From the NCBI RefSeq assembly GCF_000147875.1, contig NC_014507.1, positions 496,001 to 560,000 on the forward strand: a stretch of 64,000 nt of DNA. The letters are read 5' to 3'. Of this stretch, positions 3,291 through 58,320 are shown one piece after another. The position numbers and the translations under genes were made by a program. The DNA comes from Methanolacinia petrolearia DSM 11571 (GTDB taxonomy: Archaea; Halobacteriota; Methanomicrobia; Methanomicrobiales; Methanomicrobiaceae). The notes beneath the pieces are model-generated. The model ran no database searches. It was given only the letters and a program-made list of their open reading frames with translations, and was not told the origin of the DNA. Numbering within the stretch: position 1 is the stretch's first letter; each line of letters begins with the position of its first letter.

Positions 3291-3480
3291 CACATACGTT
3301 CGGATATTGCTTATGCACCTCACTTAGGCGACCCCGGCACCGGCGGCCAGCCGCCGGACGGCCCCTGCCCAGGGGCCTTGCCCTAAGAGACTTCTCTCAC
3401 GGCACGCTCAGGGGACGGGCAAGCGTCCCCTGTGCTGTTGAATTTGTTTTTTTGAAATATTCCGTTCAGTACACGCCTTC
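3291..3480 (+). repeat. Structured intergenic repeat, module A copy 1 (with 5' extension)
   Basis: GC-rich element in an AT-rich gap. The core (about 3327-3442) has three hairpins: CCGGCGG/CCGCCGG with a 4-nt loop, GGCCCCTG/CAGGGGCC, and CAGGGGAC/GTCCCCTG. It ends in GCTGTTGAATTTG followed by a T-run, then a tail containing ATTCCGTTCAGTACAC. Other copies are at 9981-10304 and 42054-42168 (plus) and 26038-26444 (minus). The 5' part CACATACGTTCGGATATT is shared with the 26 kb copy. This copy lacks module B. Short frames through it are not genes. Confidence 0.85.
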
Positions 3481-3552
3481 CATTTATTCTTTCTACTGTG
3501 TGGGAACTTGATGTAATATTTAGGGAAACAGTAGTAATTTTATGAGAAATTA

Positions 3553-9901: not shown

Positions 9902-9980
9902 TAATTCCAGTTTGGGCCGTTGAATTATTATATTTTTATTTTTGATGTCGTATTTCCCGAAATGTTCAGAGAGGGCCTGG

Positions 9981-10304
9981 CGTATTGCTTACAGATCTTA
10001 TTTTGGCAACCCCGGCACCGGCGGCCAGGTCCGCCGGACGGCCCCTGCCCAGGGGCCTTGCCTTAAGATAGCCCTCTTACGGCACGCTTAGGGGACCGGC
10101 AAGGGTCCCCTAAGCTGTTGAATTTAGTTTGCTATGGCATGTTCCATTCCGTACACGCCATGGATTTACCGCGTTTCGCCGCTCAGGGGATATTCATCTA
10201 TCCCCTGAGTGGCCTATCACAATAGAGAGGCCCCGAGGCCGGGGCCGATCCGCGAGCCTGCTGTGCGGCTCGCGGCGAGGGGCTGCCAAAAGTAGTGAAA
10301 CTTG
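9981..10304 (+). repeat. Structured intergenic repeat, modules A+B (copy 2)
   Basis: Module A (about 10005-10122) shows CCGGCGG/CCGCCGG, GGCCCCTG/CAGGGGCC and a stem at 10087-10114 with arms CTTAGGGGACC and GGTCCCCTAAG. A linker with ATTCCGTACACGCC follows. Module B (about 10175-10304) has CTCAGGGGATA/TATCCCCTGAG, GGCCCCG/CGGGGCC, and CCGCGAGCC/GGCTCGCGG (10250-10275), ending in AAAAGTAGTGAAAC. The same A+B order occurs on the minus strand at 26038-26444. The 5' piece CGTATTGCTTACAGATCTTA is also shared with that copy. Confidence 0.85.
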
Positions 10305-10389
10305 CTTTTCATTAACCTAATTCTATATTTTTGTCCACCATCCTGAAAAAACCCCGAAGATGTTTCTCTCAAAAAAACGATCTCAAGAA

Positions 10390-15136: not shown

Positions 15137-15203
15137 ATCTCTAATGATTTAATGACGTGAATATAGATAGAATTTGTGAGAAATGTAAAAAGTAAAGTTT
15201 CTG

Positions 15204-15233
15204 AAAAAAGAGGGCTGGTTCCTGAATATCAGG
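15204..15233 (-). terminator. Terminator of the large uptake operon
   Basis: On the minus strand, the last gene of the operon ends at a small CCTGA/TCAGG hairpin followed about 12 nt later by a run of six T. This would separate the operon from the ribose-1,5-bisphosphate isomerase gene downstream on the same strand. Confidence 0.45.
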
Positions 15234-16434
15234 TGATCTCAAGATACTCAAGCATAAATGCGTTCATTATATCATTGGTTGTTTCTTCATCGGTGCCGTA
15301 TAGTTCTACTATATATTCGCGTATCCAGGTCTCAAGATCAATATCCTCGAATCTTTCAGGATATATGGCCTTTGCGGCTATCATAACGTTGACAGGAAAT
15401 TCGAGTCTTTCCGATTTGCAGGGTGTTGCTGCAAGCGAGTAGACCTCACCTGATTTTATAGCTCTCATCTCCTGTATGTTCCCGTATAGTTCTTCATCAT
15501 ACAACTGTCTTGGAGGATGGTATCCGCTCCATGTAGACAGGATGATCTTGTCGGGGTCAAGCGAGATCAGCTGTTCGGATGAGATCAGGTTTCTGCCGTT
15601 GTCTTTGTAAACATTGTTTGCATTCACTATCTTTTCCATTAAAGCAAGCTCTATTGTACCGTTTCCGAATGCATATCCTACTCCTCCCTTATCAAAGGCA
15701 TTTGTCGGAGCACCGAAGTAAAGGACGTTTACCTTCTCTTTTTCTGAGATATTGCCTGTTCTTTCGGTGATGAAGTCGATTCTTGAACGCATCGTTTCTA
15801 CGATCCTTTCGGCCTCTTCTTCTTCTCCGAAGACCTCGCCGAGAAGCATTACTTCATCATAAATGGTTTCTGCATCGGGATTTTCATAGCACGACGGATA
15901 CTTAAGGACGACGACCGGTATTCCCATGGAGTCCAGTTGTTCGATGAATTTTTCTGTATTCTCATCCTGCTCTCCCATGTCTCTCAGGATAAAGAGGTCC
16001 GGGTCCAGTTTGGCAATTGTTTCGGCATTAGGCTCTCCGTAAGGACCCGCGAATCCGCCCACATTTGTAGTGTTAAGCAGCTCGGGATTAAGGATCTGGC
16101 CGATCCAGGTGTTGACCGTGTAATCGGTTCCGTTATATACATAGGTTCCCTGATCTGTTGCCGTCTTTTCTACGCTGCATCCTACGATTCTGTCTTCCTT
16201 TCCGAATATGTACATGGCGGTGTCGATTAGAGAACGGCTCATTGCCACCACTCTTTGCGGATCTTCGGGTACTGTAACTTCGACTCCCCTCATGTCGGTG
16301 ACGGTTTTGTATCCTGAAGTGTTATCCAAATCAGATTCGTATGAGTTGCTTGCATCTTCGGTACAGCCTGATGCAGCTATAATGACTGCCAACAGGATTA
16401 ATAGTAGAATTAGTGAGTGCTTTCTCTTTGACAT
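15229..16434 (-). CDS. FecB/BtuF-like substrate-binding lipoprotein, paralog 1
   Basis: 401 residues with a lipoprotein signal (KRKHSLILLLILLAVIIAASGC, lipobox AASGC). The mature part is a class III periplasmic binding protein (VTDMRGVEVTVPEDPQRVVAMS, AKLDPDLFILRD, TWSGYHPPRQLYDEELY). The start at 16434 sits 12 nt after a GGGTGATT site; a longer ATG at 16458 overlaps the upstream gene. It is the most divergent of four paralogs and keeps only a single Cys in the late PCKSERLEFPV motif, where the others have CNC. It probably delivers a ligand to the FecCD permease at 23615-24694. Confidence 0.85.
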   Translation of the reverse strand: MSKRKHSLILLLILLAVIIAASGCTEDASNSYESDLDNTSGYKTVTDMRGVEVTVPEDPQRVVAMSRSLIDTAMYIFGKEDRIVGCSVEKTATDQGTYVYNGTDYTVNTWIGQILNPELLNTTNVGGFAGPYGEPNAETIAKLDPDLFILRDMGEQDENTEKFIEQLDSMGIPVVVLKYPSCYENPDAETIYDEVMLLGEVFGEEEEAERIVETMRSRIDFITERTGNISEKEKVNVLYFGAPTNAFDKGGVGYAFGNGTIELALMEKIVNANNVYKDNGRNLISSEQLISLDPDKIILSTWSGYHPPRQLYDEELYGNIQEMRAIKSGEVYSLAATPCKSERLEFPVNVMIAAKAIYPERFEDIDLETWIREYIVELYGTDEETTNDIMNAFMLEYLEIT

Positions 16435-16439
16435 TTTAA

Positions 16440-17672
16440 TCACCCGCAGGCAATGCATTTATCAACACACCATTCCATCCATTGTGCGGAGAGCAGTTCT
16501 TTCGCCGTAGCCTGATCCACGACGTAGACATTCATGTAGAAATCAATTAACCAGTCTTCAAGATCTATATCCTCGAATAGTCCGGGATATGCCGCTTTTG
16601 CAATAACCATGATATCGATGGGGTATTCAAGTCTCTTTGCGCAGTTACAGGGCTCCCACGGGAAAGAGGATACTTTCCTGTTCTTAACGGCCGAAATTTC
16701 CTGCAGGTCCTGGTAATATGGTGCTGAGTAAAGTTCTTCGGGAGGGTGGTAGCCGGACGATGTTCCGAGGACGATGACATCAGGGTTGATGGCGAGCACC
16801 TGTTCGGCCGAGACGATTACGGAATTACCCTCTTCCTGGTAGGCGTTCTTCGCATGAACGATCTCTTCAATGAAATAGGATTCAATCGTGTCTGTTCCTT
16901 TGACATTTCCGGCGCCCCCGCTCTGCCTTGATTTTGGTGACGCCCCGAATATGAGGACTGTCGGTTTTTCGGATTCTGGAATATCCTTTGTCCTCTCATA
17001 GACCATGTCCACCAGGGATTCGAGGTAATCGGCCAGCTCGGAGGCTTCCTCTTCCTTTCCAAATACCGATCCTATGATCTCTATCTCGTCCGATATTGTT
17101 GTAAGGTCAGGTTCGTCAAAGCATGGATGTGCTTTGAGCACCACTACGGGAATTCTAAGGGACTCTATCGTCCGGATCGATTTCTGAACTCCTTCGTCAT
17201 CCATTGATCGCATGGTACATGAACCGACACGAATAATTACAACATCAGGATTCAGCCCGGCCAGGGTTTCATAGTTTATTGCCGAGCCTGATTCCCCTAC
17301 TCTTGTAATATTCATGATCCAGTCTTTGTTGAGATAGGTCACGGGGTTCATGCCGTCTTTATATTCATAACTCTCGTCGGTTGTCGTGGGGTAAGTATAA
17401 TTGAAGTTTCTCTGTATGCAGGATGACCCGACACCGACAATCTTGTCCTCTTCTCCAAGTACTGTCATGACTCCTTCTACAAGGCCGTCCGATATGGTGA
17501 CAACCCGTTCAATGTCCGCCGGAACCCTGACTTCTTCTCCCCTCGAATCTGTGACTGTCCTGAATTTTTCGTCTTCACCGGAAACATTTGTCTGATCTGA
17601 CTGGCCTGTGCACCCTGTACACATTATAGCCGCGGCAGCCAGAATCATGGCTATAATAAGTAAATTCTTCAT
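16440..17672 (-). CDS. FecB/BtuF-like substrate-binding lipoprotein, paralog 2
   Basis: About 410 residues. The ATG at 17672 gives MKNLLIIAMILAAAAIMCTGC, a clear lipoprotein signal; an ATG at 17687 is also in frame. The family features are VTDSRGEEVRVPADIERVV, LAGLNPDVVIIRVGSC, SSGYHPPEELYS and EPCNCAKRLEYPID. Cysteines shared with paralogs 3 and 4 are in GSSCIQ, VGSCTM, HPCFD and PCNC. The stop is 5 bp before paralog 1. Binding of a metal or metal complex through these cysteines is inference. Confidence 0.85.
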   Translation of the reverse strand: MKNLLIIAMILAAAAIMCTGCTGQSDQTNVSGEDEKFRTVTDSRGEEVRVPADIERVVTISDGLVEGVMTVLGEEDKIVGVGSSCIQRNFNYTYPTTTDESYEYKDGMNPVTYLNKDWIMNITRVGESGSAINYETLAGLNPDVVIIRVGSCTMRSMDDEGVQKSIRTIESLRIPVVVLKAHPCFDEPDLTTISDEIEIIGSVFGKEEEASELADYLESLVDMVYERTKDIPESEKPTVLIFGASPKSRQSGGAGNVKGTDTIESYFIEEIVHAKNAYQEEGNSVIVSAEQVLAINPDVIVLGTSSGYHPPEELYSAPYYQDLQEISAVKNRKVSSFPWEPCNCAKRLEYPIDIMVIAKAAYPGLFEDIDLEDWLIDFYMNVYVVDQATAKELLSAQWMEWCVDKCIACG

Positions 17673-17727
17673 CGTATCAGCCTTCATCGTTTATCAGGTT
17701 TTCTTACTCTCCTGCCTTTGAGTTTTC

Positions 17728-18489
17728 TTATATGCCGGAACTCAGGGATTCCGTTATTTTTTCAATATACGGATTTCTGATGTCCATTTCCACACCCCTT
17801 AGACCTCTTTTCAGGATCTCGTCATCTCCGGGGATTTCTCCGATTAAGAGTGAAGGATCTACGATCTGTTCTTTTATTATAGAGGAGATCTCCGGATCTG
17901 TTTTATTGAGTATGAAGTACAGCGGAATCTCCAGATCCTTTGTCATCCCTGATATCTTTTCGGCTAATCTGATCGACTCGTTGGACGGATCAAGAACAAG
18001 CAGGATGAAGTCGGCGTGCCGGTCGATTCCTCTTCCGAAATGTTCAATTCCTGCTTCAGTGTCGGTGATGACGATGTCATCTTCTCCAAGGGAAAGGTTT
18101 TCAAGAAACTGGTTTGCCAGAATACCCATTGGGCATGCACACCCCTCTCCGAAATCATGAATCTTGCCAATTGCAATGAGCCGGATCCCGTTTTTATAAC
18201 TGACATATTCTTTGGGAAGATCCTCAAACGTCCATGTATTCTCAAAAATTTTTACTTTTGAGGGATCTGGCATCGCTGCCATTATTTTTTCAGTAATTGC
18301 CGGTTTCCCGCCAAAATATTTCATCAGATCCGCCGGGGAGTCGTTTCCGAGTATGGAATGGAGTCCCATATTGGATTCGTCCGTATCAACGACGAGTACG
18401 TTCTTGTTCTGCCTTGCGTATTCGTGGGCCATTAGTGCGACGATTGTGCTCTTTCCGCTGCCCCCTTTTCCGCAGATTACAATCTTCAT
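17728..18489 (-). CDS. CooC-like P-loop ATPase (nickel insertion type)
   Basis: 253 residues, MinD/ParA superfamily. The deviant Walker A is GKGGSGKST (residues 7-15), followed by VVDTDESNMGLHSILG. A CxC pair lies in GEGCACPMG (about C117 and C119), matching the metal-binding CxC of CooC near residues 112-114. The ATG at 18489 has an AAGGAG site upstream. CooC proteins bind Ni(II) at the dimer interface and load carbon monoxide dehydrogenase. Here it lies in an uptake operon, not beside CODH genes, so it may handle imported metal. Related annotations as cobyrinate diamide synthase are less likely. Confidence 0.82.
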   Translation of the reverse strand: MKIVICGKGGSGKSTIVALMAHEYARQNKNVLVVDTDESNMGLHSILGNDSPADLMKYFGGKPAITEKIMAAMPDPSKVKIFENTWTFEDLPKEYVSYKNGIRLIAIGKIHDFGEGCACPMGILANQFLENLSLGEDDIVITDTEAGIEHFGRGIDRHADFILLVLDPSNESIRLAEKISGMTKDLEIPLYFILNKTDPEISSIIKEQIVDPSLLIGEIPGDDEILKRGLRGVEMDIRNPYIEKITESLSSGI

Positions 18490-18509
18490 CTTATCAAAAC
18501 TCCTTATTT

Positions 18510-19358
18510 TTATACTGTTTTTCCGGTCTCCCACCAGATGACCGTGCTCGTGTTTGTTTCCCTGAGTGCGAAACCATCCTTGTCTTTGACAAGTTTTTCA
18601 CTGAGATAATCCTTGAGAATTCCCTCCTGTTCGTTGTTTTCAATGTTGTAGACCTGACTCATCTGTGATACTGCAGAAATGAGATCCGGGAACCGGTTGC
18701 AGCTTTCAATCTCTTTTACCCTGATATTCGGGTATATCCCCATCGAATAGAGTACGTTATAGATTATGTCGGCCTGTGGGGTGCAGCAGAATTCCTTTCC
18801 GTGAAGCACTGGCCAGAGTTTTATTAGACCCTTTTCCCATGAAGGAGTGCCTGAGATCCAGAATATGTAAACCCATTTTGAGGATATATCACACATCATC
18901 CGGATGGATTTGTTTAAGTCCTGCATCCCGAGAGAATATGATGCAAAGACGAGATCGTAAGGCCCTTTGAGATCAGTGGAAAGGTCGATCTCTTCCCAGC
19001 GTTTTCTAATTATATCAAGGTTATCTACGCCTTTTTCTGCTGCATATTCCTCCATGACGTCTGCCATTCCCGGCGAGGGCTCTACACCAGTTACATGGTC
19101 AACCTGGCCGGCAACCGGCACTGCGATCGTTCCGGGGCCCGACCCGATGTCAAGAACCCTTAAGCCGGGTGAAAGAGGAAGTTTTTCAAGGATGAATTGA
19201 ACACGCTCTGGATTTTTTATTGCATTATTCAGAAAGCCTCTTGCTTCTTCCCTGCTTTGCCAGATTGTGGCGCATTCCCCGAATGCTTCGCACCTTATAT
19301 TCGCGCCGTTTACTTCATTCCAGATCTCATTCCAGTCGATACCGTAGTAGGTTTTCAT
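18510..19358 (-). CDS. Class I SAM-dependent methyltransferase 1 of the uptake operon
   Basis: 282 residues. SAM motif I is VLDIGSGPGTIAVPVAG, followed by VTGVEPSPGMADVMEEY and DLVFASYSLGMQD. The N terminus (YYGIDWNEIWNE) and the ECATIWQSREEARGFL segment are specific to this pair of paralogs. The ATG overlaps the stop of binding protein 3 as ATGA, so translation is coupled. The C-terminal half has cysteines (EFCCTPQADI) that could hold a ligand. The methylated substrate is unknown; the operon suggests a metal-bound small molecule. Confidence 0.82.
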   Translation of the reverse strand: MKTYYGIDWNEIWNEVNGANIRCEAFGECATIWQSREEARGFLNNAIKNPERVQFILEKLPLSPGLRVLDIGSGPGTIAVPVAGQVDHVTGVEPSPGMADVMEEYAAEKGVDNLDIIRKRWEEIDLSTDLKGPYDLVFASYSLGMQDLNKSIRMMCDISSKWVYIFWISGTPSWEKGLIKLWPVLHGKEFCCTPQADIIYNVLYSMGIYPNIRVKEIESCNRFPDLISAVSQMSQVYNIENNEQEGILKDYLSEKLVKDKDGFALRETNTSTVIWWETGKTV

Positions 19359-20590
19359 TCTTCGATACACCATTCCATCCATTGTGCATAGAGAAGTTCT
19401 TCTGCCGTAGCCTGATCGACGCCGTAGACGTTCATGTAGAATTCAATGAGCCATTCTTCAAGCTCGATGTCCTCGAATAGTTCGGGATATGCCGCTTTTG
19501 CAATAACCATTACTTCAATCGGGTATTCCAGCCTCTTATCACAGTTGCAGGGCATAAATGGAAGAGACATTACCCGTTCGTTTTTAACAGCCGTAAGCTC
19601 ACTTAGTGCTGAATAATATGTTGCGTTGTACAGTTCATCCATGGGATGGTATCCCCATGCAGTACAGAGTACAATAACGTCGGGATCGAGGGCCAGTACC
19701 TGTTCGGTGTTGACGATCTGCCATGTGCCTTCACTCCGGTATGCGTTTTTGGCATTGACCACATCCTCTATCATGTAGGATTCCGTAGTCCCGAGGCCCT
19801 GCACGACTCCTGCACCTCCCTGCGCACGGTGTGTTGCGGAAAGGCCGAACATAAGGACAGATGGTTTTTCATTTTCGGCAATATCCGAGGTGCGCTCTTC
19901 AACAAGTCCTACCTGCGATTCGAGGTATTCTGCGATCTCTGCGGCTTGTTCTTTCTTGCCGAATACATCGCCTATTATCTCTATCTCGTCAGAGATATGT
20001 GAGAGGGACTGATCGCTGTAGCAGTTAGGGCTGTAAAGCACTACGAGCGGTATTCCGAGCGATTCGATGGTTTCTATTGTCTTCTGTGCCGTTTCACTGT
20101 CTTTTTCCTGAATAGAACAGCTCCCGAGCCTGATGATTACTACATCGGGGTCCAGTGACGACAATGTTTCGTAATTCATTGCCACACCATACTCCATTAC
20201 GAGTGGGACTTCATTTATATCCGGGTCCAGCACTAGCTGAATACTACTTCCCCCGGAGCCGTTTACACAGGTCCCGTCGTCTACAGGATATGAATATGTT
20301 TTCTCTATCGCGATACAGGTCGATCCTAATCCGACAATAGTATCCTCAACGCCCAGGGAATACATTACCCCTTCAACAAGTCCGTCTGATACTGTAACGA
20401 CTCTTTCGATATCTTCAGGTATTTCAACCTTAACGCCTCTTGAATCGACAACCGTTCTGTAACCGGAATCGGATACATCTGATTCATTTCCATCCGCTGA
20501 CTGATCTTCAGAGACGCAGCCTGCGGAGAAGATAATGATAAATGAAATAACGAGAATAAGTGCCAGGTTCCGAAAAGTCATTTTCTTCAT
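19355..20590 (-). CDS. FecB/BtuF-like substrate-binding lipoprotein, paralog 3
   Basis: 411 residues from the ATG at 20590, with lipobox FSAGC. Near-identical to paralog 4 over the signal peptide and much of the body (VVDSRGV.VEIPEDIERVV, GVVQGLGTTESYMIEDVVNA), which indicates recent tandem duplication. They differ most around residues 85-125, the region following GVEDTIVGLGS. The family motifs RLGSCSIQ, SPNCYSD, WGYHP and MPCNCDKRLEYP are kept. An in-frame extension to 20650 overlaps the methyltransferase relic and is not the start. Its start and stop both overlap neighbours as ATGA. Confidence 0.86.
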   Translation of the reverse strand: MKKMTFRNLALILVISFIIIFSAGCVSEDQSADGNESDVSDSGYRTVVDSRGVKVEIPEDIERVVTVSDGLVEGVMYSLGVEDTIVGLGSTCIAIEKTYSYPVDDGTCVNGSGGSSIQLVLDPDINEVPLVMEYGVAMNYETLSSLDPDVVIIRLGSCSIQEKDSETAQKTIETIESLGIPLVVLYSPNCYSDQSLSHISDEIEIIGDVFGKKEQAAEIAEYLESQVGLVEERTSDIAENEKPSVLMFGLSATHRAQGGAGVVQGLGTTESYMIEDVVNAKNAYRSEGTWQIVNTEQVLALDPDVIVLCTAWGYHPMDELYNATYYSALSELTAVKNERVMSLPFMPCNCDKRLEYPIEVMVIAKAAYPELFEDIELEEWLIEFYMNVYGVDQATAEELLYAQWMEWCIEE

Positions 20591-20673
20591 CTTCCTATCT
20601 CTTTCCGGATTCGGTTTTTTTCGTATTTCTGCTTCCAGATCTCGTTCCACTCAAGACTATGATCTGTTTTCAT
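20587..20673 (-). pseudogene. 28-codon relic of a methyltransferase gene between binding proteins 4 and 3
   Basis: A 28-codon frame (ATG 20673, TGA 20589-20587) reads MKTDHSLEWNEIWKQKYEKN and then eight more residues. Its residues 8-20 match the start of methyltransferase 2 (IDWNEVWKQKYEKN), with about 35 of 36 bases identical, and its first three codons match methyltransferase 1. The rest of the enzyme is absent. Both ends keep ATGA overlaps: with the stop of binding protein 4 and with the start of binding protein 3. The relic therefore preserves translational coupling and marks an internal in-frame deletion of a former binding protein/methyltransferase repeat. Confidence 0.8.
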
Positions 20674-21908
20674 TCTTCGATACACCATTCCATCCATTGT
20701 GCATAGAGAAGTTCTTCTGCCGTAGCCTGATCGACGCCGTAGACGTTCATGTAGAAATCAATGAGCCATTCTTCAAGCTCGATGTCCTCGAATAGTTCGG
20801 GATATGCCGCTTTTGCAATAACCATCACATCGATCGGGTATTCCAGCCTTTTTGCACAGTTGCATGGTGTCCATGGTAGAGACATTACCCGTCCGTTTTT
20901 AACAGCCGTAAGTTCCCTTAGTGCTGAATAATATGTTGCGTTGTACAGTTCACCAGGCGGATGGTACCCCCATGCAGTACAGAGTACAATTACATCGGGA
21001 TCGAGGGCAAGTACCTGTTCGGTGTTGACGAGCTGAAACGAGCCGGCGTCAACCTGATATGCGTTTTTGGCATTGACCACATCCTCTATCATGTAGGATT
21101 CCGTAGTCCCGAGGCCCTGCACGACTCCTGCACCTCCCTGCGCACGGTGTGTTGCGGAAAGGCCGAACATAAGGACAGATGGTTTATCATCTTCGGCAAT
21201 ATCCGAGGTGCGCTCTTCAATAAGTTTCACCTGCGATTCGAGATATTCTGCGATCTCTGCAGCTTGTTCTTTCTTGCCGAATATATCGCCTATTATCTCT
21301 ATCTCGTCAGAGATCTGCGAGAGGGAGGGATCGCTGTAGCAGTCCGGGCTGTAAAGCACTACGAGGGGTATTCCAAGCGATTCGATTGTCTCTATTGTTT
21401 TCTGTGCCGTTTCACTGTCTTTTTCCTGAATAGAACAGCTCCCGAGCCTGATGATTACTACATCGGGGTCCAGTGACGACAATGTTTCATAATTCATTGC
21501 CGCGCCCGACTGCATTGCGAGCGGAAGTTCTTTTATCTCCGGGTACAGCACCTGCATAACATTGCATCCCCCGGAGCCGTTGACATAGGTTCCGTCGTCT
21601 GTCGGGTAGGAGTATGTCCAGTCTTTACCGATACATGCCGATCCCAACCCTACAAGAGTATCCTCAACCCCCAGGGAATACATTACCCCTTCAACAAGTC
21701 CGTCTGATACTGTAACGACTCTTTCGATATCTTCAGGTATTTCAACCTCAACGCCCCTTGAATCGACAACCGTTCTGTAACCGGAATCGGATACATCTGA
21801 TTCATTTCCATCCGCTGACTGATCTTCAGAGACGCAGCCTGCGGAGAAGATAATGATAAATGAAATAACGAGAATAAGTGCCAGGTTCCGAAAAGTCTGC
21901 GTCTTCAT
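20670..21908 (-). CDS. FecB/BtuF-like substrate-binding lipoprotein, paralog 4
   Basis: 412 residues. The ATG at 21908 overlaps the methyltransferase 2 stop as ATGA and has GGGAGGTAG upstream, so the longer frame to 21923 is rejected. The signal peptide ends in FSAGC. The motifs are the same as in paralog 3: GSACIGKDW, RLGSCSIQ, SPDCYSD, WGYHPPGELY and TPCNCAKRLEYPID. It probably arose with paralog 3 by duplication of a methyltransferase/binding-protein unit. Confidence 0.87.
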   Translation of the reverse strand: MKTQTFRNLALILVISFIIIFSAGCVSEDQSADGNESDVSDSGYRTVVDSRGVEVEIPEDIERVVTVSDGLVEGVMYSLGVEDTLVGLGSACIGKDWTYSYPTDDGTYVNGSGGCNVMQVLYPEIKELPLAMQSGAAMNYETLSSLDPDVVIIRLGSCSIQEKDSETAQKTIETIESLGIPLVVLYSPDCYSDPSLSQISDEIEIIGDIFGKKEQAAEIAEYLESQVKLIEERTSDIAEDDKPSVLMFGLSATHRAQGGAGVVQGLGTTESYMIEDVVNAKNAYQVDAGSFQLVNTEQVLALDPDVIVLCTAWGYHPPGELYNATYYSALRELTAVKNGRVMSLPWTPCNCAKRLEYPIDVMVIAKAAYPELFEDIELEEWLIDFYMNVYGVDQATAEELLYAQWMEWCIEE

Positions 21909-22744
21909 CTTTCTACCTCCCACCAGAGCCTGATCCCGGTAGTAACACCCGGGAATAAAAAGTGACAGTTCTCCTTTACAAGCGATTTTTTCAGGTAATT
22001 GTTTAATATCGATTCCTGTTCAGGCGTAGATAATTTGAATTGTTCCTTAAAATCATGAAATGCGGTGTCGTAGTCCGGATATACCGAGTCACTGGTAAAA
22101 AGTCCCGGCTCGACATTAGGGTAGATATTCATTGAATATAATAAATTGAACAAAACATCTGCCTTGGGCCCGCATGAGTACTCTTTTTTGTAGAGGTCAG
22201 GCCAGAGGTCTGTCATTCTCTGTTCCCATGCTGTGATTCCTGCGAACCAGAAGAGACAGATCTTCCCTGACGCTACCGAGATCATCTTCTCGATTGATTC
22301 CCTTATATCAGGCATCCCAAGTGAATGCGAGGCGAATACTATATCGTAGGATTCTTTTAGATCCATGCCGGGATCTACGTCTTCCCATTTTTTCCTGACA
22401 ATGTCAAGGTTGGAGACTCCTCTCTCAGCTGCATAATCGGCCATTACATCCGCCATACCTTTTGAAGGTTCGACTGCAGTCACATGTCCGGACAGTTCGG
22501 CTAACGGGACTGCAAGTGTTCCCGGTCCGGCGCCGACATCAAGGATACTGCATTCCTTATCCGGCCCCAGAAGATCGACAAATTCCCTGATACGATCGGG
22601 ATTATTTTTTGAACGGGCAAGAAATCCTTTTGCTTTCTCTTTAGAGTCCCAGATCGATGCACAATCACCTATCCCTCTTGATTTGATGTTTTTTTCGTAT
22701 TTCTGCTTCCAGACCTCGTTCCAGTCGATATAATTGCAATCCAT
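21905..22744 (-). CDS. Class I SAM-dependent methyltransferase 2 of the uptake operon
   Basis: 279 residues, paralog of the enzyme at 18510-19358. Motif I is ILDVGAGPGTLAVPLAE, then VTAVEPSKGMADVMADYAAE and DIVFASHSLGMPDI. The N-terminal IDWNEVWKQKYEKN is also found in the relic at 20587-20673. A strong GGAGAGGATT site precedes the ATG. It lies between the ABC ATPase and binding protein 4 in the same operon. Substrate unknown. Confidence 0.82.
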   Translation of the reverse strand: MDCNYIDWNEVWKQKYEKNIKSRGIGDCASIWDSKEKAKGFLARSKNNPDRIREFVDLLGPDKECSILDVGAGPGTLAVPLAELSGHVTAVEPSKGMADVMADYAAERGVSNLDIVRKKWEDVDPGMDLKESYDIVFASHSLGMPDIRESIEKMISVASGKICLFWFAGITAWEQRMTDLWPDLYKKEYSCGPKADVLFNLLYSMNIYPNVEPGLFTSDSVYPDYDTAFHDFKEQFKLSTPEQESILNNYLKKSLVKENCHFLFPGVTTGIRLWWEVER

Positions 22745-22762
22745 TGATTAATCCTCTCCTTT

Positions 22763-23608
22763 TCATGCTTTTGTTTCAATAATCTCACATTGGCTGTACT
22801 CTTCATCGTCATTTGAAAGCTGAACGGATGCGTCTGACTTTTTCACAATGCTCCGGGGCATCACGATTTGGACGTCTCCGTTCTTTCTGACAGCGCAGGT
22901 GTCTGAATAGATGAGATCCAGTACCTCTTCACTGATCGTAGCCTCCGGTGAACCGTCAGCGACAATGCCCCGGGAGGACACTACTATTACCCTGTCACAG
23001 AACCATGACACATGGTTTGGATCGTGGCTGCAGGCAAGGATTGTCTTTCCTTCTGCTGCTATGTCCTTCATGGTCTCCCAGATCTTCATCTGGTTCTGGA
23101 AATCAAGAGCAGATGTGGGTTCATCAAGAAACATCATGGGCGTATCCTGTGCAATTGCCCTGGCCATAAGCACCATCTGGCGCTGTCCCCCGGACAACTG
23201 GTTGTACGGTCTCTCGGCGAGATCACTAATTTCGAGTTTTTTCAGGGCGTCCAGTGCAATCTCCTTGTCCTTACGCCTGACCCCGAAAAAACCGCCGAGG
23301 TGTGGTGTTCTCCCCATCAGGACAACCTCCCTGACAAGATAAGGGAAGGGAGGCTTGTGCTCCTGGGGTACATATGATACGATCTTTGCAAGTTCTTCTA
23401 TGGATTGTTGGGCTGTGTCTCTCCCTGCCATATGGACGGAACCTTTGTGATATTTCAGGAACTTTAGACAGCATTTGAACAAAGTGGTCTTTCCGCACCC
23501 GTTAGGCCCGAAAAGTCCGCAGAGTTCACCCTCGTTCACGGAAAAAGAGATGCCTGAAAGGACAGGGAGATCATCGTAGCTGAAATGGAGGTCTTCTACA
23601 CGAAGCAT
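22763..23608 (-). CDS. FecE/BtuD-like ABC transporter ATPase
   Basis: 281 residues. Walker A is GLFGPNGCGKTTLF, the signature LSGGQRQMVLMARAIA, and Walker B MMFLDEPTSALDF. VSYVPQEHKPPFPYLVREVV is typical for the iron-chelate/cobalamin importer group. A C-terminal extension of about 30 residues ends in an acidic, Cys-containing tail (NDDEEYSQCEIIETKA), which is unusual. It lies 6 bp after the permease gene and powers import together with it. Confidence 0.92.
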   Translation of the reverse strand: MLRVEDLHFSYDDLPVLSGISFSVNEGELCGLFGPNGCGKTTLFKCCLKFLKYHKGSVHMAGRDTAQQSIEELAKIVSYVPQEHKPPFPYLVREVVLMGRTPHLGGFFGVRRKDKEIALDALKKLEISDLAERPYNQLSGGQRQMVLMARAIAQDTPMMFLDEPTSALDFQNQMKIWETMKDIAAEGKTILACSHDPNHVSWFCDRVIVVSSRGIVADGSPEATISEEVLDLIYSDTCAVRKNGDVQIVMPRSIVKKSDASVQLSNDDEEYSQCEIIETKA

Positions 23609-23614
23609 CGTAAA

Positions 23615-24694
23615 TCACCCGAATATTACTCTCCCTTTGTTTCTCAGCAGATAGCAGAGGTATGGGGCGCCGAGAATCGATGCAATAATTCCGACCGGGA
23701 TCTCCGCACTGGTCACTGTTCTTGCAAGCGTATCACATATTATGAGGTATATTCCGCCCATCATGAATGAGGCGGGGATTATGAAGCGGTTGTCCGGGCC
23801 GAGGATCATCCTCGATGCATGCGGCATCATAAGACCTACCCATGCAATAATTCCTACGAGCGATACTGCAAAGGCGGTGATTGCGGTCGCGATTGCCACT
23901 ACTATGAACTTGTATTTTTCAGGATTCACTCCGAGTGTTCTTGCTTCATCATCCCCCATGGAGAGAATATTGAGTTTCCACCCCAGTGCCCATAATATCA
24001 GAAATCCAATTATAACAACAGGAGCTATCATCCAGATGTCGCTCCATGTCGCATAATAGAACCCTCCCATAAGCCAGAATACAATTTCTCTTAAGGCGGT
24101 ATCGTCTGAGATATATTTTAAAAGTGAAACGAGTGCGGAGAATATCGAGCCTATGATGACTCCGGCAAGTATCAGTGTCACAATTGGTGTCTCTCCCCTG
24201 ACACGGGCAAGCATGTAGGCAAGTACGACCGCAAGTGATCCAAAAGCGAATGCGGAGAGCTGGGTCGAGAAGAAAATTGCGGGAAAGACTATCCCGAGCG
24301 CAGCACCGAAAGCGGCACCGGACGATACGCCGAGGATGTACGGCTCAACGAGAGGATTCCTGAAGACTCCCTGAAAGACCGCACCTGCAATCGCAAGTGC
24401 CCCGCCGACAAATATTGTCAGCAGGATTCTGGGCACTCTGATGTCCCATACTATCGTATTATGCAGTTTTTCGAGATTCGAGACGTCTCCGAATGTAATA
24501 TGAGTTAGTATGGTCCTGTAGACCTGCGGAATTGTGATGTCGTATGCTCCCAGAACCACAGCCGTTATGGCGGTTATAAAAAGGATTCCTGCAATTACAA
24601 GAAGCATTATTATTTTTCTGTAATCTGAAAATTCAGGAACGTCGATATAATCAAAATGTTCGAGTAATCTCTTCAGCCTGGTTGTTTCGGTCAT
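23615..24694 (-). CDS. FecCD/BtuC-family permease
   Basis: 359 residues with about ten TM helices. FRNPLVEPYILGVSSGAAFG and GLMMPHASRMILGPDNRF are hallmark segments of the FecCD (iron-chelate, cobalamin, haem) importer permeases. A soluble N-terminal stretch of about 28 residues precedes the first helix. It is the first gene of the operon that encodes the ATPase, two methyltransferases, four binding lipoproteins and the CooC-like ATPase. Motifs alone cannot give the substrate. Confidence 0.92.
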   Translation of the reverse strand: MTETTRLKRLLEHFDYIDVPEFSDYRKIIMLLVIAGILFITAITAVVLGAYDITIPQVYRTILTHITFGDVSNLEKLHNTIVWDIRVPRILLTIFVGGALAIAGAVFQGVFRNPLVEPYILGVSSGAAFGAALGIVFPAIFFSTQLSAFAFGSLAVVLAYMLARVRGETPIVTLILAGVIIGSIFSALVSLLKYISDDTALREIVFWLMGGFYYATWSDIWMIAPVVIIGFLILWALGWKLNILSMGDDEARTLGVNPEKYKFIVVAIATAITAFAVSLVGIIAWVGLMMPHASRMILGPDNRFIIPASFMMGGIYLIICDTLARTVTSAEIPVGIIASILGAPYLCYLLRNKGRVIFG

Positions 24695-24945
24695 GTACTT
24701 TCACTTGTTGAAATATTTCAGGTATTTGCTATGTAGCCATTAATTATGAAAAAATATGATCTTATATTATTTATTATTTTAAATCCTCTAAAAAATTTTT
24801 ATTTTAATTGTTGTGTGTATGAATAATTTCTTGCACAATTCTTTTTAATCATAAAACATTGGTTCAGAGCTTGTGTTGCGACTGGTAGTTGTTACAGAAT
24901 CTCTTACTGCTGATGGTTATGGGTAAAGACAGGAACAGATCCGAT
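24695..24945. other. AT-rich leader/promoter region of the uptake operon
   Basis: About 250 bp, strongly AT-rich around 24740-24850, with several TATA-like stretches readable on the minus strand (for example ATAATAAATAATATAAG). It should hold the promoter of the minus-strand operon starting at 24694 and leaves a long leader. No convincing riboswitch or gene was seen. Confidence 0.4.
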
Positions 24946-25218
24946 TCAAGATCGTCCGATTTTATTCCATTCATCTACTAGTTTTAAAATATTGAGAGAC
25001 CTTTCGTTTGTAATCTCAATCTTTCCGGTGTATACGTGTTTCGTGTTCTTCTCAAGAGAGATAACATCCCCTTCAAGGAACTCTTTCCTGCCGATTATGC
25101 ATCTTTTCTTTGAGAACCCGACTTCAAATGTCTTAGCTGTTTGATTGTGAAATTGAAAAATAAACAGATCAAAATGTCCAAAAAAGAAAGATCCAATATT
25201 TAAGCGGGAAGAAATATT
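24946..25218 (-). pseudogene. Open frame without start codon, in phase after the YkgJ-type gene
   Basis: Following the TAA at 25221-25219, the same frame stays open for 90 codons to a TGA at 24948-24946. It contains a protein-like part (KTFEVGFSKKRCIIGRKEF, then LEGDVISLEKNTKHVYTGKI) but no ATG, GTG or TTG start. It may be the 3' remnant of a lost gene, a gene with a rare start, or chance. No family recognised. Confidence 0.3.
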
Positions 25219-25947
25219 TTACAGTCGGATGGTGTAATCATCCTTAATGATCGAGTGCATCTCGAATTTTCCCCTGAAATGAACGAAGACCGTTACAGGC
25301 TCTCCGGACTGAAACGCCCTGATCTTTTGATCGTATACCTTTCTTACAGGCTTAAGCCCTGATTCTGTGAAATGCCTGAGTGCACAGCTGTAGAACTCGA
25401 TCTCCTTTTCCAGGAAGGCCTTTTCGTATGTGATTGTCTCCTTCGCGGCCTTCAGGCAGTCTTCATCCGGGATGTCGGCATTGTATTCGCCGTGCTCGTT
25501 CAGTCCTGAGATCTGTCTCCATGCAAGTTTCCCGTCTTCGCCGTATTCGCGGTGGAGCATGTAGGGGTAGATCCTGCATATGGAGAACCGGTCGTTGTAA
25601 ATGGTACACCTGTTCTCTTTTAGGAAGATGCAGTCCCCGTTCTCTTTCGTCTTAAGGGCGTAGCCGGAGACGTAGAAGTTCCCGTTTTGATCGCAGAGCT
25701 CGAAGAAGGGTGCCGGGACTATCGCATCCTGCCGGATTCTTCTGACCCTCTCCGTGTCTTCATCAAGTAAAAAAACGTGTCCGTTGAACTCTTTCGTACA
25801 GCACTTGCCGCAAAGGGTGCAGGAGAACCCGACCTCCTTTATGACCGAGCAAAGCTTTTCGATGTCGTATTCTTCAAGGAGCCTTAGCTCTTCTTCGAGT
25901 TCTCCTGTCTTCTTTTCAATTCCGTTTATCGAGTTTACCGAGGCCAA
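25219..25947 (-). CDS. YkgJ-family cysteine cluster protein
   Basis: 242 residues. The N-terminal coiled segment (KKTGELEEELRLLEEYDIEKL) leads into the zinc/iron-chelating cluster: CTLCGKCC, then FLKENRCTIYNDRFSICRIYP. The latter are the paired Cys motifs of the YkgJ (UPF0153) family. Members are common in methanogens; a redox or metal-linked role is assumed but not established. It is a single gene on the minus strand. The frame after its stop stays open, described separately. Confidence 0.85.
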   Translation of the reverse strand: MASVNSINGIEKKTGELEEELRLLEEYDIEKLCSVIKEVGFSCTLCGKCCTKEFNGHVFLLDEDTERVRRIRQDAIVPAPFFELCDQNGNFYVSGYALKTKENGDCIFLKENRCTIYNDRFSICRIYPYMLHREYGEDGKLAWRQISGLNEHGEYNADIPDEDCLKAAKETITYEKAFLEKEIEFYSCALRHFTESGLKPVRKVYDQKIRAFQSGEPVTVFVHFRGKFEMHSIIKDDYTIRL

Positions 25948-26037
25948 GTTGCATCCTCTTAAGTATCTGCAGAAATATTGTAACGCCGTTCAGAAAAAAG
26001 GTGGCTCTAAGTTGTTTCATGCGGGTATAATAATTAG

Positions 26038-26444
26038 GTTTCACTACTTTTGACAACCCCTCGCCGCGGGCCGCTCATCAGGCCCGCGGATCGGCCCCGA
26101 ACCCGGGGCCTCTCCGTTGGGATAAAACACTCAGAGGATAGGCGAGTACCCCCTGAGCGGAGAGATGCGGTTGGCTCATGATGTGTACTGGATGGAATAT
26201 ACCAAAAACGTTCATAAAACAAATTTTTTATGTAAGTCACAATGTGATTTGCGTGAAAAAAACCAAATTCAACAGCTCAGGGGACCCTTGCCAGTCTCCT
26301 GAGCGTGCCGTGGGAGAACTATCTTAGGGCAAGGCCTCTGGGCAGGGGCCGTACGGCGGCCCGGAAGCCGGTGCCGGGGTTGCCCGAGTAAGATCTGTAA
26401 GCAATACGGCAGTGCCATGAATGTAATATCCGAACGTATGTGAG
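26038..26444 (-). repeat. Structured intergenic repeat, modules A+B (copy 3)
   Basis: The longest copy, oriented on the minus strand just downstream of the KamA-like gene. Read on minus, it has 5' CTCACATACGTTCGGATATT, CGTATTGCTTACAGATCTTA, module A, a linker with ATATTCCATCCAGTACAC, then module B to GTAGTGAAAC. Module B has CCGCGGGCC/GGCCCGCGG (26064-26089), where copy 2 has CCGCGAGCC/GGCTCGCGG. Module A here carries some mismatches (GGCCCCTG/CAGAGGCC), so it is partly decayed. Short frames inside are not genes. Confidence 0.85.
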
Positions 26445-26468
26445 GATAATGCAAAAGGGAGCATCCGT

Positions 26469-35831: not shown

Positions 35832-35849
35832 TCATTAAGGTAGGGGGAT

Positions 35850-36205
35850 GATTTCCACCTCTCTTTAACCCTCCCCTCATGGCGATAGGTCGCAAAGGGG
35901 ATGGACAAGCATCCCTTTTCGCTCCTGAAACCTTTTCCCACCTAAATTATTGAAAAAGTTTTGTTCATTGATTAAAACTATCTTAATTTACTCTCTCCCG
36001 GCCGAGGCCACCCGAAAGGGTAGCGTCCAGGCCGGGTTATCGCGAGAGCGCAAAGCCCTGAGGTCAGGGCGTGTTCGCGAAGCGAACTTGCGCAAGGGTT
36101 GCCATTGGAAAAATCCTCCACTATGATATAGAAAGGGAGGGGGAGGGGTTTCCCCCTCCCTTCAACCCTCCCCCTGCCGTGGCGATAGGTCGCAAGGAGA
36201 TACAT
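35850..36205 (+). repeat. Structured intergenic repeat, family C copy 1
   Basis: Fills most of the 420-bp gap between two genes. The core hairpin (35997-36036) has CCCGGCC/GGCCGGG enclosing CCACCC-GAAA-GGGTAG, a GNRA-type tetraloop. Also present are GGGATG/CATCCC (about 35898-35917), GCCCTGAGGTCAGGGC, and TTCGC/GCGAA. A piece with GGCGATAGGTCGCAA occurs twice (about 35881 and 36180). The same element lies at 58089-58320 on the minus strand. No gene is seen here. Confidence 0.8.
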
Positions 36206-41997: not shown

Positions 41998-42224
41998 CCC
42001 TTGTCCTGATTCCAACAAACTTTTTGGCCCTTTGTTGTTTCATGTCTTTCTCCGGCAACCCCGGCACCAGCGGCCAGACCGCCGGACGGCCCCTGCCCAG
42101 GGGCCTTGCCTTAAGATAATCTTCCAACGGCACGCTCAGGGGACCGACAGGGGTCCCCTGAGCTGTTTATTTGCTTTTGTTTAGAAATCCGGATTGAGAA
42201 CCTTTAGATCCCTTGTCCTGATTC
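41998..42224. repeat. 15-bp direct repeat flanking module A copy 4
   Basis: CCCTTGTCCTGATTC occurs at 41998-42012 and 42210-42224, on either side of the structured repeat. Similarity extends a few bases on both sides (ATTCCC/GATCCC, CCAACAAACTTTT/AAACAGGTTTT). This could be a target duplication made when the element moved in, or part of the element. Confidence 0.6.
42054..42168 (+). repeat. Structured intergenic repeat, module A (copy 4)
   Basis: Same order as copies 1 and 2: GGCAACCCCGGCACC, stem 1, GGCCCCTG/CAGGGGCC, CTTGCC, then the terminal stem at 42135-42162 with arms CTCAGGGGACC and GGTCCCCTGAG. Copy 2 has T and A where this copy has C and G in that stem, a compensatory change. No module B. 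Confidence 0.85.
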
Positions 42225-58001: not shown

Positions 58002-58088
58002 GATCGTTTATTATTTAGAAATATTTTAGGAAATCAAGCCTTGGTAATTTCTCAGTATTGATGTTCTTTTTGTCTGGCTTTTGTGAAT

Positions 58089-58320
58089 GGGGCATAAGCC
58101 CCTTCGGAGCAGCTCTGTGCTCAGTCCGCTTCGCGAACTTTCGCAACGATGATAACCCGGCCTGGACGCTACCCTTCCGGGTAGCCTCGGCCGGGAGAAA
58201 ACTCGGTTTTAGGAGTATCATCTGTTTCTTGGAGCAATAGGGGATGCTCGCCCATCCCCTATTGCGATCTATCACAATCAGGGGGAGGGTTATAGGGAGG
58301 GGGATGTTCCCCCTCCCTGA
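58089..58320 (-). repeat. Structured intergenic repeat, family C copy 2
   Basis: Minus-strand copy of the element at 35850-36205. The core hairpin (58156-58195, 40 nt as in copy 1) has CCCGGCC/GGCCGGG around GCTACCC-GGAA-GGGTAGC. A second perfect stem at 58236-58263 has arms AATAGGGGATG and CATCCCCTATT, where copy 1 has AAAGGGGATG/CATCCCTTTT. It fills the gap between mscS and the tspO 3' end. No gene here. Confidence 0.8.

Follow-up and report, generated by a model that had tools for sequence, protein, structure and literature searches.

The repeat described here is a MITE-like transposon of ISL3 type that has lost its transposase and carries, as its cargo, two inverted copies of an older hairpin module. 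This assignment is well supported: the ISL3-type ends, the 8-bp duplications at the target and the lack of an ISL3 transposase in the genome together lead to a stranded, MITE-like element. The window, which is the whole stretch of 64,000 nucleotides that was analyzed, corresponds to positions 496001–560000 of the 2,843,290-bp genome of Methanolacinia petrolearia (G000). The same length, 2,843,290 bp, is given in PMC3035365 for Methanoplanus petrolearius SEBR 4847; the organism is now named Methanolacinia petrolearia (PMC4149034). A sister genome (G001) and a third congener (G002) were included in the comparison. No description of the repeat was found in the titles and abstract openings of the literature on MITEs, on ISL3 and on palindromic repeats of methanogens and other archaea.

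Copies of the repeat and their ends

The original prediction placed two copies of one composite element at 26038–26444 and 9981–10304, and both are present there. Their orientation had to be corrected, because the two copies lie on opposite strands; in addition, the 26 kb copy starts at 26003 and ends around 26445. Judged by its sequence and by the orthologous site in G001, the 26 kb copy (26003–26445, minus strand) has an ISL3-like ‘R’ end at 26003 and is truncated on the other side. The second copy (9981–10315, plus strand) is truncated at both outer ends. We refer to these elements as family 1. The window holds two more partial copies, at 3305–3486 and 42054–42173; both are on the plus strand and consist of module A only, and a degenerate ISL3-like end is located ∼80 and 28 bases upstream of them, respectively.

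With positions 9960–10310 as the query, BLAST identified at least 55 matches in G000 (40 of 62 candidates scored), far above chance, which merge into at least 53 dispersed pieces. The abundance is similar in G001, with at least 59 matches (40 of 70 candidates scored), and no match to this query was found in G002. Among the 60 genomes searched, including G000 itself, matches occur only in G000, G001 and one further genome, G009. Based on naive ORF calls, 34 of 51 pieces do not overlap any ORF of at least 100 aa, and 24 of the 51 are located in gaps between convergent genes, compared to 3 of 18 gaps in the window. In one region of G000 (G000:C1:1679500-1698500), three tandem runs with units of ∼330 bases are located at 1681.7, 1689.2 and 1694.5 kb; clustered copies were likewise observed on contig C39 of G001.

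The longer copies have the left end GGCTCTTCGCTGTTTCATGTGGGTAA and the right end GGCTCTTCGCTAATCTGTGTGGGTAT or TTATACCCACACAGATTAGCGAAGAGCC. These terminal repeats are of the GGCTCTTCG type, like those of intact ISL3-family elements of related genomes. The best-matching ends belong to intact ISL3 elements of G012 and G007, which are without the hairpin module. In G012, the two ends are unlike each other (GGTTCTTCGCTATTTCATGTGGGTAAC and GGCTCTTCGTCAAATTGTGTGGGTAT) and match the two ends of the repeat; in G007, the right type is found at the 5′ end and the left type at the 3′ end, which directly follows the stop codon of the transposase. Both ends could be detected in 21 of the 80 pieces or loci examined (53 in G000 and 27 in G001). 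With a one-base shift allowed, the flanks of 11 of these 21 copies are alike at 7–8 of 8 bases; part of these matches involve A or T runs. In the permuted control, the mean was 1.9 and the maximum 7, and none of 2000 permutations reached 11; without the shift, the flanks match in 8 of 21 copies, compared to 0.85 after permutation.

No ISL3 transposase (PF01610) was found in G000, G001 or G002. The transposase is present in 16 of 199 genomes of the order, and partner-like elements are found only in other genera. No clean empty site was found, and the one orthologous site of the 26 kb copy carries a collapsed copy. A non-autonomous mobile element was one option of the original prediction, and the ISL3-type ends and 8-bp duplications bear it out. 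The same prediction also proposed a new ncRNA and named a match to a transposon end as evidence against it; since the ends do match transposon ends, that proposal loses weight for the entire element.

Architecture and covariation of the hairpin modules

The core of family 1 contains, in order, the inner repeat GGCAACCCC, hairpin A, hairpin B, a short linker, hairpin C and the centre, followed by the same parts in reverse. The two halves of the consensus align to each other with a score of 70.5, compared to 8.1 ± 7.6 for shuffled sequences. In the 26 kb copy, module B (26052–26169, plus strand) is composed of the inner repeat GACAACCCC, hairpins A and B, the linker and hairpin C. It scores 116.8 bits with the covariance model R1, and module B of the 9981 copy (10170–10287, minus strand) scores 140 bits; both of these rows were used in building the model. 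R1 was built from module B, and it also detects module A in the window at 34.7–48.4 bits; modules A and B are therefore homologous. Module A is a diverged, inverted homologue of module B, which is located at 26264–26384 on the minus strand in the 26 kb copy (34.7 bits) and at 10005–10126 on the plus strand in the 9981 copy (48.4 bits).

The compensatory stem change originally noticed between the two copies was confirmed: CCGCGAGCC/GGCTCGCGG (10250–10258 with 10267–10275) becomes CCGCGGGCC/GGCCCGCGG (26064–26072 with 26081–26089), an A-T to G-C swap. In an alignment of 58 rows, one of which is junk, 95.1% of the cells are paired. Changes on both sides were observed in 27 of 66 pairs, compared to 8.9 after shuffling and at most 15 in slid versions; the covariation in the stems is real. 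For the 9981 copy, folding gave z = −8.9 (DNA) and −10.2 (RNA). The folding of the 26 kb copy is weaker (z = −3.8), and 1 of 100 shuffles was equally good.

From such paired substitutions, selection for a folded molecule had been proposed. Paired changes do keep the stems, but selection does not follow from the pairing alone, because template switching in imperfect palindromes yields the same pattern of paired substitutions. Both the 26 kb and the 9981 loci are occupied at the same place in G001. At the 26 kb locus of G001, the outer parts of the element are kept and the core is deleted, the deletion being bounded by hairpin arms. The structure is thus dispensable at that site in G001, and the collapsed copy speaks against an essential role in place. 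At the 9981 locus, comparison with G001 shows 7 differences in 132 paired columns of the core and 25 in 146 unpaired ones; in the intergenic flanks there are 10 in 163 positions. Among the aligned copies, this core is closest to that of another G001 locus, L037 (0.907); its positional orthologue, L031, reaches 0.886. Since the core is nearer to another locus and its unpaired sites have diverged beyond the flanks, the copies probably exchange sequence. Elsewhere in the window, a segment of ∼10 kb with a FecCD transporter gene (15184–25259) is missing at the syntenic place of G001, where 46 bases are found instead.

Read on one strand, the non-Watson–Crick cells of the alignment comprise 103 G-T, 75 A-C and 91 others. 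Read from the centre outward with the terminal helix omitted, G-T exceeds A-C by 98 to 28, or by 29 to 11 when counted by columns (p 0.006); in both cases the orientation was chosen after the data had been seen. A G-T bias is shared by the unpaired sites of module B and is absent from those of module A. These counts do not support a single RNA strand for the whole element; a G-T preference emerges with the two halves on opposite strands. In helices 2–7 of alignment A1, the excess of G-T over A-C is confined to the centre-outward reading of each module. In module A, CCTTGCC (10056–10062) can pair with GGCAAGG (10098–10104) in the loop of hairpin C. A pseudoknot of this kind was considered and rejected; the two segments are 97.2% paired, and their covariation is not above that of shuffles.

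Hairpin C beyond family 1

Hairpin C has the form GGGGATR-GRCRAG-YATCCCC, with GRCRAG as the loop. Using the pattern GGGGATRGRCGAGYATCCCC with one mismatch allowed, we found it in 44 of 232 genomes of Methanomicrobiales, belonging to 13 of 40 genera; the reversed pattern, which served as the control, gave one match in one genome. The closing pair was compared in an alignment of 37 rows, most of which came from a pattern that allows all four combinations at this place: 26 rows have G-C, 10 have A-T and in 1 the pair is broken. An exact scan of a collection of 84,980 species identified 20 stretches, 11 of which have a Methanomicrobiales name in the title.

Family 2 is different in sequence and has the same inverted plan of two modules. 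It is present in G000 and G002, and the window contains it twice as composites. One of them (35840–36100, plus strand), recognized by its sequence and by R1 at 22.2 bits on the minus and 15 bits on the plus strand, has hairpin C at 35897. The other (58086–58320, minus strand; R1 22.4 bits) has a perfect hairpin C stem of 13 bp, GCAATAGGGGATG/CATCCCCTATTGC. A partial second unit at 36133–36196 on the plus strand, identified from its sequence, retains the GGGAGGGGG hairpin and the linker and has lost hairpin C.

Some ISL3 elements also have hairpin C in their untranslated segments. In the ISL3 element on contig C24 of G148, whose flanks repeat TATTTGAT, it sits between the end of the insertion sequence and the start of the transposase; in the element on contig C23 of the same genome its location is identical, and relative to C24 it differs by a double change from A-T to G-C. 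At two loci of G011 (L067 and L082), the module lies between the transposase and a GAAGAGCC or GAAGAGTC end. Relative to the nearer end, the orientation of the module in these insertion sequences is opposite to that in the MITE. All 64 other hairpin C loci are without an ISL3-like end in the adjoining 250 bases (3.4% in the control), which indicates that the module is independent of ISL3 and rules out a general tie to ISL3 ends. Three loci of G009 (L032, L034 and L036), the only ones of this kind, have a single module B between terminal repeats of the TGCTGTCCCAAAATCATTTGACA kind, which are not ISL3-like. The other terminal repeat of G009 was searched for in G009, G014, G000 and G001 and has just two sites there, both in G009.

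Taken together, the order-wide presence of hairpin C and its occurrence inside ISL3 elements and in family 2 indicate that the module is older than the MITE. The transposon thus appears to be a carrier of an older structured element of Methanomicrobiales and, given the age and wider spread of the module, a structured functional element may reside within the MITE.

The original prediction recognised no known RNA family, and Rfam gave none for the element. The Rfam scan of the window gave no match at the gathering score, and in scans of locus L001 and three G009 loci at E ≤ 1, only a tRNA outside the element was found. Scans of nine other hairpin C loci gave, besides one tRNA, sub-threshold matches only. 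Identity with a known RNA family was rejected on these results.

Origin and possible role of the module

The reading that we regard as likely joins these parts: an ISL3-ended MITE, moved by a transposase that acted in trans and is now gone, contains two inverted copies of an older hairpin module with a putative role as a barrier to transcripts. An ISL3-family transposase supplied in trans would have cut and joined the ends and so produced the 8-bp target duplications. With the transposase now missing from G000 and its congeners, the copies would have become stranded, recombining with each other and decaying. The module is an older structured element of Methanomicrobiales, single beside transposase genes inside ISL3 elements and double in family 2. 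Located in untranslated segments, it may fold into a barrier to transcripts that enter from the surroundings and so reduce read-through in either direction across the borders of the element. Among the possible roles, such a barrier to entering transcripts is our preferred guess, and a tentative one.

Template switching at imperfect palindromes, combined with conversion between copies, could maintain the pairing without any selection for folding. The closeness of the 9981 core to L037, the divergence of its unpaired sites beyond the flanks and the arm-bounded deletion in G001 all fit this possibility; however, it leaves unexplained why the GRCRAG loop and the order of modules are kept across genera, and we consider it possible but doubtful. 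Alternatively, the module might be a structured RNA, or a divergent pair of small RNAs, with a cellular role, copies of which the MITE merely carries. The excess of double changes in the family 1 stems, the spread of hairpin C with a closing pair that is broken only once, the lower variation of paired than of unpaired columns (0.096 versus 0.220) and the centre-outward excess of G-T argue for such an RNA. However, its G-T preference requires opposite strands for the two halves in an orientation picked post hoc, the unpaired sites of module B are biased likewise, G-T and A-C total 103 and 75 on one strand, Rfam gives no match and the 26 kb copy has collapsed in G001; such an RNA is unlikely. 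A further reading of low probability is a fast-evolving structured module of the whole order, defined by hairpin C, GRCRAG and the YTATCNCNATRR linker, that has its own function and was repeatedly captured, singly or as inverted pairs, by ISL3-type elements. Guide RNAs that adjoin transposon genes offer a parallel to such repeated capture.

REP/BIME-type palindromes mobilised by a Y1 (REP-associated) transposase are suggested by the short, interspersed, inverted hairpin pairs and by the GGAG that adjoins hairpin C in family 2. However, Y1_Tnp (PF01797) is absent from 12 of the 13 hairpin C genomes searched, including G000, G001 and G002, G011 being the exception, and ISL3 ends with 8-bp duplications characterize family 1. 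A REP/RAYT system is largely refuted by the missing transposase, and this origin is very improbable.

The analysis yields a concrete and searchable hairpin motif, present in 44 of 232 Methanomicrobiales genomes, without a match to an Rfam model in the loci scanned and now linked to a transposase family, ISL3. If the module is functional, a structured element has gone unstudied in a major group of methanogens; if not, the module illustrates well how mobile palindromes generate covariation, which matters for RNA claims that are based on covariation.

Like ISL3 insertion sequences and MITEs, the repeat has GGCTCTTCG-type termini, unlike left and right ends, an 8-bp duplication and no transposase of its own. 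Different from ISL3 MITEs, its body consists of two inverted hairpin modules rather than a deleted transposase gene, and G000 is without an autonomous partner; such a partner is usual for MITEs but not strictly defining, and it is often lost. Bacterial BIME/REP elements are intergenic, occur in many copies and consist of inverted hairpin pairs. The repeat resembles them in all three respects, whereas its modules are much larger and 12 of 13 genomes are without the Y1 transposase. Pneumococcal BOX elements are modular and structured, and are probably moved in trans by an insertion sequence of the host. The repeat is likewise modular, structured and probably moved in trans by an insertion sequence; different from BOX, it is archaeal, and full ISL3 elements as well as a second composite family contain its module too.
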